Positions 60,247-64,000 of a stretch of 64,000 nucleotides of DNA are shown here, piece after piece. Numbering within the stretch: the stretch's first letter is position 1; every line of letters begins with the position of its first letter. The translations under genes and the position numbers were made by a program. Location: assembly GCF_000146165.2 (NCBI RefSeq), contig NC_004347.2, positions 558,001 through 622,000 of the forward strand, written 5' to 3'. The notes below the pieces were generated by a model. It was given only the letters and a program-made list of their open reading frames with translations, was not told the origin of the DNA and ran no database searches. Source of the stretch: Shewanella oneidensis MR-1. Its GTDB lineage: Bacteria; Pseudomonadota; Gammaproteobacteria; Enterobacterales; Shewanellaceae.

Positions 60247-61311
60247 TTATTCATCGCTTTGGGCGCGGAATTGCCGAGCGTGACGCTGCTCATCAAGGCT
60301 TGCAATAATACGGTGATAGTTATTAAAGCGATCTTCGCTGATTTTACCCGCATCGACAGCAGCCTTTAAGGCGCAGCCAGGATCGTCTCCGTGTTTGCAG
60401 TCGCGGAATTTACAGCCACCTAAAAAGTCGCGAAATTCAATAAAACACCAACCAACACGCTGCGCAGGCAAATGCCAAAGGGCAAATTCGCGCACACCGG
60501 GGGAATCAATTAAATCACCGCCACTAGGTAAATGCAGTAATTTAGCGGTAGTGGTAGTGTGTTGCCCAAGCCCAGAGTTGTCGGAGACATCGCCCACCAG
60601 TAGCTCGGCTTCTGGCAGTAAGGCGTTTACCAGTGAAGACTTACCCACACCTGACTGACCCGCAAACACACTCACTTTATCCTTGAGCAGTGCTTTGATG
60701 GTTTCTAGACCTTCGCCTAATTTACTGCTGACCTTATACACCGGATAGCCAATATCTTGATAACGCTTTAAGGCTTCCTCTATGGCTGGCGCTTCTTCAG
60801 GCGTCAGCAGATCGATTTTATTCAAAATAATAATCGGCGGAATATCGGTGTCTTCGGCTGCCACTAAGTAGCGGTCAATAATTTGAGTGGTAAAGCTAGG
60901 TAACACCGACGACACAATCAAAATTTGGTCGATATTCGAAGCGATAATTTTCACGCCATCATATAAATCGGGGCGTGAGAGTGAAGAGTGTCTTGGATGT
61001 ACTGCTTCCACAATGCCTGCTATGCCACTATTGGCTTGGCTTTCAATGGCTAAGCGTACAATCACTTTATCGCCAGTGACTAAACTGGTAATCGTGCGGC
61101 GAATATTACAGCGCACAATGTGGCCGTCTTCAGTTTCAATATCGGCATGTTGGCCAAAGCGAGATATGACAGTACCGCTCTGTTCTGGGCCGAGTGAGCT
61201 ATCCTGTAACTCAGGCGTATTTTTATCACCACTGTCACGATTGAGGCGTTTCTCGTGATTGGCGCGCATACGGCGTAATTGGCCTTGGCTTAGGGGTTTC
61301 TTTTTACTCAC
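60247..61311 (-). CDS. rsgA: RsgA, small-subunit biogenesis GTPase
   Basis: A 354-residue circularly permuted GTPase. The order of motifs is G4 (ILNKIDLL), G1 (GQSGVGKSSLVNALL), G3 (DSPGVREF), then a zinc-binding CX(n)CX(n)H region CKFRDCKHGDDPGC near the C-terminus. RsgA matures the 30S subunit and responds to GTP and (p)ppGpp. It starts at GTG 61311. The gene is divergent from orn. The upstream hairpin AGCCT/AGGCT plus a T-run near 61384-61399 (minus strand) is noted but probably weak. Confidence 0.95.
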   Translation of the reverse strand: MSKKKPLSQGQLRRMRANHEKRLNRDSGDKNTPELQDSSLGPEQSGTVISRFGQHADIETEDGHIVRCNIRRTITSLVTGDKVIVRLAIESQANSGIAGIVEAVHPRHSSLSRPDLYDGVKIIASNIDQILIVSSVLPSFTTQIIDRYLVAAEDTDIPPIIILNKIDLLTPEEAPAIEEALKRYQDIGYPVYKVSSKLGEGLETIKALLKDKVSVFAGQSGVGKSSLVNALLPEAELLVGDVSDNSGLGQHTTTTAKLLHLPSGGDLIDSPGVREFALWHLPAQRVGWCFIEFRDFLGGCKFRDCKHGDDPGCALKAAVDAGKISEDRFNNYHRIIASLDEQRHARQFRAQSDE

Positions 61312-61423
61312 TGGTTTGTCTTCGTCAATTAGGTGATATTTTGTGTTTGAAAAAAGCAGTATGATACACGCTCTTGAATAAAAAAGCCTGAATTTAGGCT
61401 AACTGACACGATAAGGCGCAATT

Positions 61424-61969
61424 ATGGCGGCAGACGCAAATAATCTCATTTGGATCGATCTTGAAATGACTGGGTTAGAACCCGATGTGGATAGAGTCAT
61501 TGAAATTGCTACCTTAGTAACGGACCAAGAACTCAATATTATCGGTCAGGGACCTGTGATTGCGATTCACCAATCGGATGAAGTATTAGCGGCTATGGAT
61601 GATTGGAACCAAAAACACCATGGTGAATCGGGACTGATTGAGAGAGTCCGCGCCAGCCAAGTGAACGAAGCAGAGGCTGTTGCTCAAACTATTGCTTTCT
61701 TAGCGCAATACGTACCTAAGGGCGTCTCACCAATGTGCGGTAACAGCGTGGGCCAAGACCGTCGCTTTTTAAACCGCTACATGCGCGAGCTGGAGGATTA
61801 CTTCCATTACCGCAACCTCGACGTAAGCACGGTTAAAGAGTTAGTGAAGCGTTGGAGCCCTGAAACCATGGCGGGTTTCAAAAAGCAAAACACTCACCAA
61901 GCTTTGCAAGATATCCAAGAGTCGATAGCAGAATTGCAGTATTACCGTAGCAAAGTATTTAAAATTTGA
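61424..61969 (+). CDS. orn: oligoribonuclease
   Basis: A 181-residue DEDDh exoribonuclease with [11 protein letters not shown] near residue 11, [23 protein letters not shown] and the late [13 protein letters not shown] histidine-aspartate pair. It degrades two- to five-base RNA pieces and is essential in many gammaproteobacteria; it also degrades pGpG, the product of EAL phosphodiesterases, which links it to the c-di-GMP genes in this window. AAGGCGC precedes the ATG. Confidence 0.95.
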
Positions 61970-61999
61970 CCGATCAGCAGATAAATCTGCAAGAAGGGG

Positions 62000-62027
62000 T
62001 TGCAGCCGCATAAATTTTTCATATAAT
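62000..62027 (+). promoter_or_regulatory. promoter of the tRNA-Gly operon
   Basis: TTGCAG (62000-62005) and TATAAT (62022-62027) are 16 bp apart. A GC-rich stretch GCGGCC follows the -10 box, the discriminator typical of stringently controlled stable-RNA promoters. It lies about 140 bp before the first tRNA. Confidence 0.65.
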
Positions 62028-62078
62028 GCGGCCTCAACTTTTTGATGCGGACATGATTGTCTAGTCAAATAAGTGAAG

Positions 62079-62152
62079 CCTACACTCGCTCAGTTGATAA
62101 AGGTGAAAAACGATACCTTTGTGAATGTTGAAGCGGATGTGGCAGCAATACT
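62079..62152 (+). other. tRNA-like element A (degenerate)
   Basis: Resembles elements B-D from CTCAGTTGATAAAGG through GATACCTTTG and GTTGAA to ATGTGGCAGC. The first bases are diverged from the tRNA 5' end. It precedes the first tRNA-Gly. Boundaries approximate. Confidence 0.5.
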
Positions 62153-62169
62153 CTAAGTTGAAAAGAAAA

Positions 62170-62245
62170 GCGACATTAGCTCAGTTGGTAGAGCGATACC
62201 TTGCCAAGGTATAGGTCATCGGTTCGAACCCGATATGTCGCTCCA
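62170..62245 (+). tRNA. tRNA-Gly (GCC)
   Basis: 76 bases with encoded CCA. Acceptor stem GCGACAT/ATGTCGC, discriminator T, D-arm GCTC...GAGC, anticodon stem ATACC/GGTAT with GCC anticodon, TpsiC loop GGTTCGAACC. First of four identical copies. Confidence 0.97.
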
Positions 62246-62289
62246 AATACAAATTTTAGTGATTTACCAAGTCATTAAATACAAAATAT

Positions 62290-62361
62290 GCGACATTAGC
62301 TCAGTTGATAAAGGTTGATAGACGATACCTTTGTTAATGTTGAAGGCGATTGTAGCAGCGA
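62290..62361 (+). other. tRNA-like element B
   Basis: Begins GCGACATTAGCTCAGTTGAT, identical to the tRNA-Gly 5' end except for the last bases, then diverges: AAAGGTTGATAGACGATACC then TTTGTTAATGTTGAAGG. It has no anticodon arm, T-arm or CCA. The preceding spacer (62246-62289) is repeated before element C. Confidence 0.65.
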
Positions 62362-62369
62362 TACAAAAG

Positions 62370-62445
62370 GCGACATTAGCTCAGTTGGTAGAGCGATACC
62401 TTGCCAAGGTATAGGTCATCGGTTCGAACCCGATATGTCGCTCCA
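62370..62445 (+). tRNA. tRNA-Gly (GCC)
   Basis: Identical in sequence to the copy at 62170-62245, 200 bp downstream of it. Confidence 0.97.
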
Positions 62446-62488
62446 AATAGAAATTTAGTGATTTACCAAGTCATTAAATACAAAATAT

Positions 62489-62560
62489 GCGACATTAGCT
62501 CAGTTGATAAAGGTTGATAGACGATACCTTTGTGGATGTTGAAGACGAATGTGACAGCAC
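62489..62560 (+). other. tRNA-like element C
   Basis: Nearly identical to element B up to GATACCTTTGT, then TGGATGTTGAAGACGAATGT and GACAGCAC. The tail ATGTGAC can partly pair with the 5' GCGACAT. Confidence 0.65.
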
Positions 62561-62567
62561 TAATTAT

Positions 62568-62643
62568 GCGACATTAGCTCAGTTGGTAGAGCGATACCTT
62601 GCCAAGGTATAGGTCATCGGTTCGAACCCGATATGTCGCTCCA
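62568..62643 (+). tRNA. tRNA-Gly (GCC)
   Basis: Third identical copy, 198 bp after the second. Confidence 0.97.
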
Positions 62644-62675
62644 ATTTTAGACAGTTACAGTCTTTAAATGTAAGT

Positions 62676-62749
62676 GCGACATTAGCTCAGTTGACACAAG
62701 GTGGATAGACGATACCTTTGTGAACGTTGAAAGCGGATGTGACAGCACT
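62676..62749 (+). other. tRNA-like element D
   Basis: Starts GCGACATTAGCTCAGTTGAC, then an ACAAGGTGGATAGACGATAC variant of the core and GTTGAAAGCGGATGTGACAG. Its tail CTCTAAGTTG is shared with that of element A. Confidence 0.65.
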
Positions 62750-62769
62750 ACTCTAAGTTGTAAAGAAAG

Positions 62770-62845
62770 GCGACATTAGCTCAGTTGGTAGAGCGATACC
62801 TTGCCAAGGTATAGGTCATCGGTTCGAACCCGATATGTCGCTCCA
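62770..62845 (+). tRNA. tRNA-Gly (GCC)
   Basis: Fourth identical copy, 202 bp after the third. Confidence 0.97.
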
Positions 62846-63377
62846 ATTCCCTGAATTTCCATTATCAAACTCCTCAATTTAAGACGATTTTAATTGCACT
62901 ATGATGTAGCAATGCATTTATTTTCCAAACTATAGGTCATGGGTTTGAAGCTCTCTTGATTAGAGCCACGTCGCTCCAATTTTTTCTCTAAATCCTTTCA
63001 TAAATATAAACAATCCACATATTGTTGAAAATGTAGTGCTTTCGTTGCCTCGAATTACATTTATCTTCAGGTTAACGCCTTATCGCTCATTGAGAATAAG
63101 TTCAGTTTTTAGCAACTGTTTTAATCCCTTATGGACGACAGTGTCGGATAAGCTGCAACCAGAATTTTTCATTTTCGGTATTTTTGCATTTTATGGAAAA
63201 CAAAACACCGAGCTTAATGCGTGATCTGGGCTTTGCTTCTTTAAGATTTTCTAAATTAGATGGCACCATGAAGGGCAAATTATGATCTTGCTCAATTATT
63301 CGCAATGTTTTTGCTTACATAATGAATCCAGACAAAAAATAGCGCCAAGTTGTTGGCTTAACATTGGAGTGCATTAT
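62846..63377. other. gene-poor region after the tRNA array
   Basis: About 530 bp, AT-rich. It holds the tRNA 3'-half remnant at 62925-62979, a T6 run at 62980-62985 that may end the tRNA transcript, and otherwise nothing recognised. The 62-codon frame at 63036-63224 shows no ribosome site or family. Confidence 0.5.
62925..62979 (+). pseudogene. tRNA-Gly 3'-half remnant
   Basis: CCAAACTATAGGTCATGGGT matches the anticodon-to-T-arm part of the tRNA-Gly genes, and CGTCGCTCCAA the 3' end; about 12 extra bases containing a GCTCT/AGAGC hairpin lie between. The 5' half is absent. Confidence 0.6.
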
Positions 63378-63833
63378 ATGCGTATTCAACAATTACGTGA
63401 TTTACTTGAGTATGTGGCGAACTGCCGCTTAGATATGGCGCAACTCTATGGCCGACTAAACAATCAGGCCGACTCCGCCCGTGTGAAGATGATGTTGGAG
63501 TATTTTGAATCTCATCAAAAACATGTCGCTGAAAAATTGCGTGATTATATGGATGAGGCACCCGTAAGAGTATTAGATACTTGGTATAAAGACTTTGTAT
63601 TTGAAGATTTTACTAAGCGTTGTCAAGATACTATGTTGCCAGCGAACATGAATGAAGATGATGTGTTGAATCTACACCTCGACTTAGAAAACCGCTTGAT
63701 TGGGTTACTGGAAAAAACCGTTAATTCAACCACCGCAGAAGATGCACGCACAGCTTTAGAGGGGTTAATTCGCGTTGAGAAAATCCAGCAGCAACGTTTA
63801 GTGCACAGCACCATTCGGATGGATGATATCTAA
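63378..63833 (+). CDS. helical protein, possibly ferritin-like, unknown
   Basis: A 151-residue soluble protein that appears almost wholly helical, with long amphipathic helices. FESHQKH near residue 38 (an ExxH-like pair), DLENRL near 107 and RVEKIQQQR near 136 sit in positions compatible with a four-helix bundle metal site, but this is only suggestive. GGAG 9 bases upstream fixes the ATG at 63378. I do not recognise the family. It stands alone beside the IS end. Confidence 0.65.
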   Translation: MRIQQLRDLLEYVANCRLDMAQLYGRLNNQADSARVKMMLEYFESHQKHVAEKLRDYMDEAPVRVLDTWYKDFVFEDFTKRCQDTMLPANMNEDDVLNLHLDLENRLIGLLEKTVNSTTAEDARTALEGLIRVEKIQQQRLVHSTIRMDDI

Positions 63834-63860
63834 TTTATCGATAGTTTATTTGCCTTAGGA

Positions 63861-64000
63861 GGGCGTTCAAAATTCTGTGTCAGGCTAATTTTTAAATTTC
63901 TAGCACGCTATCTAAACGTCCTTCAAAATAAATCGCTAACTGAGATAAACAAAGGCTCCAATTGTGGATTGGCATAGTCCATTTATCTGAGGCGTTTAAT
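63861..64000 (-). mobile_element. IS256-family insertion sequence, one end
   Basis: The end of an insertion sequence enters from the right edge. The probable terminal repeat begins at GGGCGTTCAAAATTCTGTGT (63861), containing the AATTCTGTGTCA block typical of IS256-type ends, and the transposase stop lies 31 bp inside it. The other end and the target duplication are outside or cannot be identified. Confidence 0.75.
63892..64000 (-). CDS. IS256-family transposase, C-terminal end
   Basis: The last 35 residues of a transposase, open to the window edge. [20 protein letters not shown] matches the conserved C-terminus of IS256-type transposases (KWTMPI-x-NW), followed by [11 protein letters not shown] and a stop. 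The catalytic DDE residues lie outside the window. It is the 3' end of the gene in the insertion sequence described at 63861. Confidence 0.8.

Follow-up and report, generated by a model that had tools for sequence, protein, structure and literature searches.

Downstream of orn, the oligoribonuclease gene of Shewanella oneidensis MR-1 (61424-61969; NCBIfam equivalog), lie four tRNA-Gly(GCC) genes, each preceded by an element that opens like a tRNA and then departs from it. The question raised by this locus is whether such elements are relics of tandem duplication, free to decay, or are maintained as RNA. It was addressed here in the window (the whole stretch of DNA analysed, 64,000 nt, whose numbering is used in Table 1) and in the corresponding loci of related genomes.

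An earlier sequence-only reading had described the four tRNA genes as identical and as starting 200, 198 and 202 bp apart; ARAGORN calls, identical Rfam tRNA alignments and repeat analysis all agree with this. It had also placed an element of 70-75 bases before each tRNA. The elements, hereafter called cassettes, are present, and each extends right to the start of its tRNA-Gly, which makes them 91, 80, 79 and 94 nt long. The heads of cassettes B, C and D are exactly GCGACATTAGCTCAGTTG, the tRNA 5' end they had been said to carry, and the head of cassette A has 4 mismatches in 18 positions. After the head, all four cassettes continue with an arm (ATAAAGGT; ACACAAGGT in D), the block CGATACCTT, a second arm and a tail. 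The core that had been read as shared among the elements and foreign to tRNA needs correction on both counts: GTTGAA occurs in all four cassettes, GACGATACCTTTGT in B, C and D only and ATGTGACAGC in C and D only; and the core is in part tRNA, CGATACCTT being the anticodon-stem 5' strand of tRNA-Gly, although the arms around it are indeed not tRNA. When GACATTAGCTCAGTTG was searched with up to three mismatches, its 8 occurrences in the window all fell at the array, against 0.52 expected in the window, which excludes a chance origin of these matches.

Table 1. Features of the tRNA-Gly array, in window coordinates
Feature	Position	Strand	Description or basis
Promoter-like TTGCAG-16-TATAAT then GCGGCC	62000..62027	+	Upstream of cassette A; putative promoter
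Cassette A, 91 nt	62079..62169	+	Degenerate tRNA-like head, arms, tail
Cassette A arm ATAAAGGT	62097-62104		
Cassette A arm ACCTTTGT	62115-62122		
tRNA-Gly(GCC) 1	62170..62245	+	ARAGORN, Rfam
Cassette B, 80 nt	62290..62369	+	Exact tRNA-Gly nt 1-18, arms, CGATACCTT block, tail
tRNA-Gly(GCC) 2	62370..62445	+	ARAGORN, Rfam
Cassette C, 79 nt	62489..62567	+	Layout as cassette B
tRNA-Gly(GCC) 3	62568..62643	+	ARAGORN, Rfam
Cassette D, 94 nt	62676..62769	+	Layout as cassette B
tRNA-Gly(GCC) 4	62770..62845	+	ARAGORN, Rfam
3' remnant of long tRNA-Gly-derived pseudo-tRNA (TTTCCAAACTATAGGTCATGGGTTTGAA...GTCGCTCCA)	62922..62978	+	Repeat families of window

The promoter-like sequence before cassette A recurs in related loci; a consensus scan gives no call at 62000-62027, where the first hexamer matches at just three of six positions, and we infer from its sequence that transcription may start there.

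Distribution and turnover of the cassettes

Orn was found in 128 of 129 Shewanella genomes, and the stretch downstream of it in 120 of them, together with the window, gave 121 loci (26 of which were shorter than 2,500 nt, where the contig ended); the eight genomes outside this set comprise seven with Orn and one with no Orn match. Under criteria of up to 5 mismatches in the 5' block and a length of 55-100 nt, on both of which the figures for block conservation are conditional, 183 short cassettes of 67-94 nt were found at 87 of the 121 loci, and the other 34 carried none. Counting only loci of 2,500 nt or more (95), 69 have a cassette and 26 do not. A BLAST search with cassette C matched 87 of the 129 genomes. 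The layout is a tRNA 5' end of about 18 nt, a replaced D-arm, the anticodon-stem 5' strand, a second arm and an A-rich tail which abuts the next tRNA or cassette (tRNA-Gly in 154 cases, another cassette in 29), and the head is exactly GCGACATTAGCTCAGTTG in 125 of the 183. Lineages tend to have a characteristic unit length, and they differ in arm sequence. A second kind of tRNA-Gly site (Gly-Cys-Leu) gave matches in several species, e.g. at L021, L026, L029 and L033; the Gly-Cys-Leu site of MR-1 itself gave none.

Tandem duplication had been proposed as the null explanation. Recent duplication does contribute: in the window, cassettes B and C lie inside 108-nt repeats that are 94% identical, and cassettes A and D share a 116-nt piece, tRNA included, that is 97% identical. 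A very recent duplication in this strain alone fails as the whole explanation, given the signs of a maintained RNA structure (below) and the spread of the cassettes through the genus, at 87 of the 121 orn loci. Elsewhere, exact units run in tandems of two or three (three 80-nt units at L073, 198-nt units at L085). Gain and loss of cassettes look quick among close relatives, because MR-1 and eight genomes whose Orn is at least 97% identical to its own have 4, 0, 2, 1, 2, 0, 3, 1 and 1 cassettes, respectively. Such presence and absence, as read from the sequences, argues against an essential function.

These observations suggest how the cassettes may have arisen. They would be descended from 5' halves of tRNAs, truncated close to the anticodon and with a changed D-arm, and their gain and loss would result from slippage or unequal crossing-over where the tRNA 5' end is repeated. 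Because a shared head would ease both processes, the position of the cassettes, their tandem units and their quick turnover could all be understood in this way. The simplest reading goes no further: tandem pseudo-tRNAs would be duplicated and truncated neutrally, their blocks kept uniform by recombination and their hairpins made by template switching, with no selection involved. The recent duplications in the window and the exact-unit runs at L073 and L085 speak for it, as do the long pseudo-tRNAs at the same loci, mosaics that look like decaying relics. What speaks against it comes from the pairing of the arms, considered below, and we regard this neutral reading as unlikely.

Long pseudo-tRNA-Gly elements of about 88-137 nt were observed at the remnant in the window (62922-62978), of which fuller relatives are present at related loci, and at L124, L069, L161 and other loci. 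They are mosaics of tRNA blocks, with differing inserts in the D, anticodon, variable and T regions. A 3' end could be recognised at 88 nt or beyond in 164 of 206 candidates, and 115 of the 164 lie downstream of the last tRNA-Gly of their locus; at L124, six stand in tandem at a spacing of about 150 bp. Complementary inserts, such as would make them structured RNAs, were seen by eye in several, and this was not significant for the set: after thinning to 32, all of which were tested, the strand preference did not reach significance (20 of 32, p = 0.077).

Outside the genus, short cassettes precede tRNA-Gly at four of the 20 orn loci taken from further genera and families; at two of the 20 no tRNA was found. 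The four carry a different sequence (GCTCAGTGTGG...GCRACCT); three belong to genus g2 of the same family and one to family f9. A pattern for this type matched 12 of the 394 genomes of the order, of which 11 belong to g2 (three), f9 g13 (seven) and f9 g50 (one); the twelfth, G078, has no cassette and looks like a chance match. Restricting the search to elements bounded by a following tRNA or cassette within 130 nt, we found cassettes of 76-92 nt, and short forms of 53 nt, at both kinds of tRNA-Gly locus and always before tRNA-Gly(GCC) or another cassette. In many of them the tRNA-like head folds against the tail (e.g. CACUA with UAGUG); a preference for the transcribed strand is absent in these genera (7 of 12, p = 0.27). 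As a separate observation, long pseudo-tRNA-Gly elements of two different families (L247 in G150, L254 in G171) have the insert end GAAGATCGGGAACCTCGT in common.

Cassettes also occur before tRNA-Pro. In MR-1, a 94-nt cassette (L231:127-220; G000:C1:1879926-1880019) abuts tRNA-Pro(UGG), and its head equals nt 1-29 of tRNA-Pro with one mismatch. Since the query includes the tRNA start, all 127 genomes searched match it; at least 23 of the 127, MR-1 included, have listed matches that run past the tRNA start. In all, 23 unique cassettes were collected at 16 loci, and in G076, G084, G038, G103 and G013 the next feature is another cassette. In oneidensis-like cassettes, a separate complement has been added for each tRNA-derived block.

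Other tRNA loci of MR-1 provided further observations. The tRNA-Lys (L218) and tRNA-fMet (L222) clusters contain pseudo-tRNAs of full or partial length whose loops carry inserts, and two inserts at L222, GTTTATAAAAAGAAA and CTCTTTATAAAC, look complementary. An array of eight tRNAs (Ala, Glu) at L219 (G000:C1:3258200-3260000) has near-identical spacers between several Glu genes, with no evident tRNA-like head. At L230 (G000:C1:1949800-1951500), two tRNA-Ser(UGA) genes are followed by nine copies (six, then three) of a repeat of about 90 bp, each consisting of a hairpin and T-run, terminator-like, and a piece resembling a tRNA 3' end, and thus similar to the rtT repeats discussed below.

Folding and pairing of the cassette arms

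Folded singly, the cassettes of the window give a mixed picture. Cassette A reaches -24.1 kcal/mol (z -3.31), and B, C and D taken by themselves are close to their shuffles (z -1.97, -0.73 and -0.72). These values bear on the possibility that cuts at the flanking tRNAs free a stable RNA of 70-120 nt, acting in trans or as a decoy for tRNA enzymes. Lying between tRNAs, the cassettes would presumably be cut from one transcript, and some have a strong predicted structure, for example cassette A and the tRNA-Pro cassette of MR-1 (-31.6 kcal/mol, z -3.97, computed on 95 nt). However, B, C and D fold weakly, the arm sequences vary between lineages, and the short cassettes have neither a T-arm nor a 3' acceptor strand and thus offer RNase P or a synthetase few points of contact. 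On its sequence features, a small RNA of this kind appears very unlikely.

Compared across Shewanella, the arms behave otherwise than expected of free decay. Across 18 cluster representatives (a single one covers 115 of the 165 elements), native arms had -7.89 kcal/mol against -5.73 in chimeras, a difference in which none of 20,000 permutations reached the native value; for the arm duplex alone, 3 of 20,000 did. Pairing was then counted at pairs 3-6 of 93 unique GG:CC-anchored stems, one cassette with no recognisable anticodon block being excluded from the pairing tests. There were 113 Watson-Crick and 88 GU pairs, against 87 and 77 with permuted partners. None of 5,000 permutations reached the observed sum of the two, in a test from which relatedness is not fully removed; GU pairs alone were only marginally in excess (276 of 5,000). 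Individual cases can be followed: a cassette of L124 has CTAGAAGT/ACTTCTAG where its relatives have CTAAAGGT/ACCTTTAG, that is, two double compensatory changes, and among tRNA-Pro cassettes the pair GUCCG:CGGAC has become GUCUG:CAGAC in L293. In cassette A of the window and one cassette of L124, the match to tRNA is partly gone and the hairpin is retained.

The transcribed strand folds better than its complement in 34 of 35 cassettes, thinned from 166 unique ones (z -2.34 against -0.52, p = 2e-7), and in 19 of 23 tRNA-Pro cassettes. Because all cassettes share tRNA blocks, the comparison was repeated with these blocks fixed and only the arms shuffled, using 29 cassettes thinned from the 152 next to a complete tRNA. 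On the transcribed strand, native arms folded better than shuffled ones in 28 of 29 (-17.20 against -11.69, p = 1e-8); on the opposite strand the effect was weak (-9.88 against -8.63; 18 of 29, p = 0.016), and the difference between the strands was itself significant (p = 2e-6). The tail also complements the head, i.e. the 5' block, better than shuffled tails do (23 of 29, p = 6e-5).

Both features of a structured RNA under selection, pairs changing in step and a strand preference, are thus found in Shewanella with tests that are not phylogeny-aware. Since the arms surpass their shuffles far more on the transcribed than on the opposite strand, the predicted folds point to selection on cassette structure at the RNA level. 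The same two results weigh against the neutral reading: template switching takes place on DNA and should show no strand preference, yet the transcribed strand is far more structured, and the in-step pairing over the 93 stems would have to arise with no selection, a point softened by the relatedness remaining in that test. The arms, as far as these folding models tell, are not in free decay. The suggestion of the sequence-only reading that the core is more than decay is therefore borne out in part, by fold, strand and pairing tests across Shewanella. As one check it had named a covariation test in other Shewanella genomes; there, by tests other than R-scape, the arm pairing does change in step.

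Relation to the host tRNA

The tRNA-derived blocks follow the tRNA of their own genome. With the anticodon block recognised at up to two mismatches, 179 of the 183 cassettes could be compared with their host. Where the tRNA-Gly has GTACC (four genomes, perhaps one clade), GT is found in 16 of 16 cassettes; where it has AAACC (one genome), AA in 6 of 6; and where it has ATACC, AT is kept in 156 of 157. Two loci have a tRNA with GCGGCATT; of these only L125 has a cassette, in which GCGGCATT is found as well; at the GCGATATT locus there is a match in one of two. There are exceptions, such as L119, where the host has GCGACATT and its cassettes have GCGGTATT. Agreement between the anticodon-strand block and the host tRNA extends to loop bases that play no part in the cassette hairpin. 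Uniform heads can result from recombination with the tRNA, which accounts less readily for a 9-nt anticodon block set between unrelated arms.

We also asked what a cassette would do to its neighbour. For the 29 thinned cassettes, each folded with its own next tRNA, the predicted probability of the acceptor stem was 0.97 for the tRNA alone, 0.146 behind shuffled arms and 0.398 behind native arms. It was higher with native than with shuffled arms in 22 of 29 (p = 9e-5), and cassette:tRNA pairs were fewer in 25 of 29. The corresponding comparison for tRNA-Pro cassettes is weak (0.154 against 0.065, n = 18, no statistical test applied). It should be borne in mind that ViennaRNA models neither the tertiary contacts of a tRNA nor the order in which the transcript is made, and that each of these would shift the balance towards the cloverleaf. 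In these models, an open cassette would capture the 3' half of the neighbouring tRNA, and native arms reduce the capture.

The explanation we tentatively prefer, and which we hold to be nearly evenly balanced between right and wrong, is that the cassettes are repeats of tRNA halves that spread at the tRNA 5' end, insulate themselves and are kept folded shut by selection. They would be transcribed together with the tRNAs; the added arms would fold the transcribed copy shut, which probably keeps it from pairing with the 3' half of the tRNA next to it, and cassettes that open, and would therefore misfold the precursor, would be removed by selection. The predicted insulation is incomplete: the mean stays at 0.398, and 7 of the 29 are not better than their own shuffle mean. 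The main fact that pure insulation leaves over is the host-matched anticodon block.

This block would be better explained by a regulatory switch, in which the tRNA-like strands are kept on purpose and gate the maturation of tRNA-Gly between two folds, one with a closed cassette and a cloverleaf, the other open, with the cassette head taking the tRNA 3' half. Predicted stabilities are similar for the two folds, as the average acceptor probability indicates, the block follows the host tRNA in nearly every cassette, and cassettes occur at both kinds of tRNA-Gly locus. But with 0 to 4 cassettes in close relatives and none at 34 of 121 loci, any control would be dispensable, no sensed signal is apparent, and the balance of the two folds was computed by a program that ignores tertiary structure and co-transcriptional order. 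We consider a switch distinctly unlikely; if it were true, it would represent an undescribed layer of control over tRNA supply. Under the preferred explanation, insulation by folding, the spacers of tRNA arrays, usually read as inert, here carry half-tRNAs that are predicted to spoil the tRNA fold unless closed, and their closure seems to be under selection. The cassettes thus offer, in a laboratory model, a direct way of testing how cells prevent mispairing between near-identical RNA strands of one transcript.

Comparison with known systems

Several identities could be set aside. As tRNA (RF00005), the cassettes of the window gave no ARAGORN or Rfam match up to E 5, only the four tRNA-Gly being found, and in Rfam searches of window 61000-64000, of eight loci and of four loci only tRNA reaches the gathering score. 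A mobile element (MITE- or REP-like) or phage origin is not supported, since matches past the tRNA start in the same genome occur at the array locus only; cassette C has no match in phage or plasmid collections, and all 10 hits on viral contigs, as well as the 21 non-Shewanella among 49 hits on genome contigs, have no tRNA nearby and look like chance. A permuted tRNA, suggested by the order AAGGT-GATACCTT, is supported by about 5 nt only.

T-box leaders are leader RNAs related to one tRNA species. The cassettes share this relation, the downstream gene being in their case the tRNA itself; no T-box or other Rfam leader reaches the gathering score in the stretches searched. YrlA, a bacterial Y RNA with a tRNA-like part, resembles them as a small RNA similar to tRNA; no match to it was found on the cassettes in the loci searched, where hits below threshold (25.5-36.6 bits, against a gathering score of 69) fall on genuine tRNA genes. 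No description of the cassettes was recognised in the open-access literature searched, which is weak evidence of their absence from print; the passages available from PMC5955497 and PMC5471319 do not describe such elements.

The tandem tRNA pseudogenes of bacteria are, like the cassettes, multi-copy kin of the neighbouring tRNA with no complete cloverleaf. Unlike them, the short cassettes have a common layout and maintained arm pairing, and the long pseudo-tRNAs fit plain pseudogenes better than the short cassettes do. It is possible, if doubtful, that the cassettes form an undescribed class of cis-acting RNA, that is, tRNA-headed hairpins with a host-matched copy of the 5' half, acting as folding gates on the following tRNA, which is tRNA-Gly in two families (at least four genera) and, within Shewanella, also tRNA-Pro.

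Closest among known systems are the tRNA-operon repeats of the rtT type. The rtT repeats of E. coli tyrT are, like the cassettes, tRNA-derived repeats beside a tRNA in its transcription unit; a cassette, too, carries part of a tRNA and adjoins a tRNA in the same orientation. Repeats of the rtT type carry the tRNA 3' end and yield a stable RNA. The short cassettes, in contrast, lack the 3' acceptor strand; they carry the 5' end and the anticodon strand, precede the tRNA, and have arms that pair in step.
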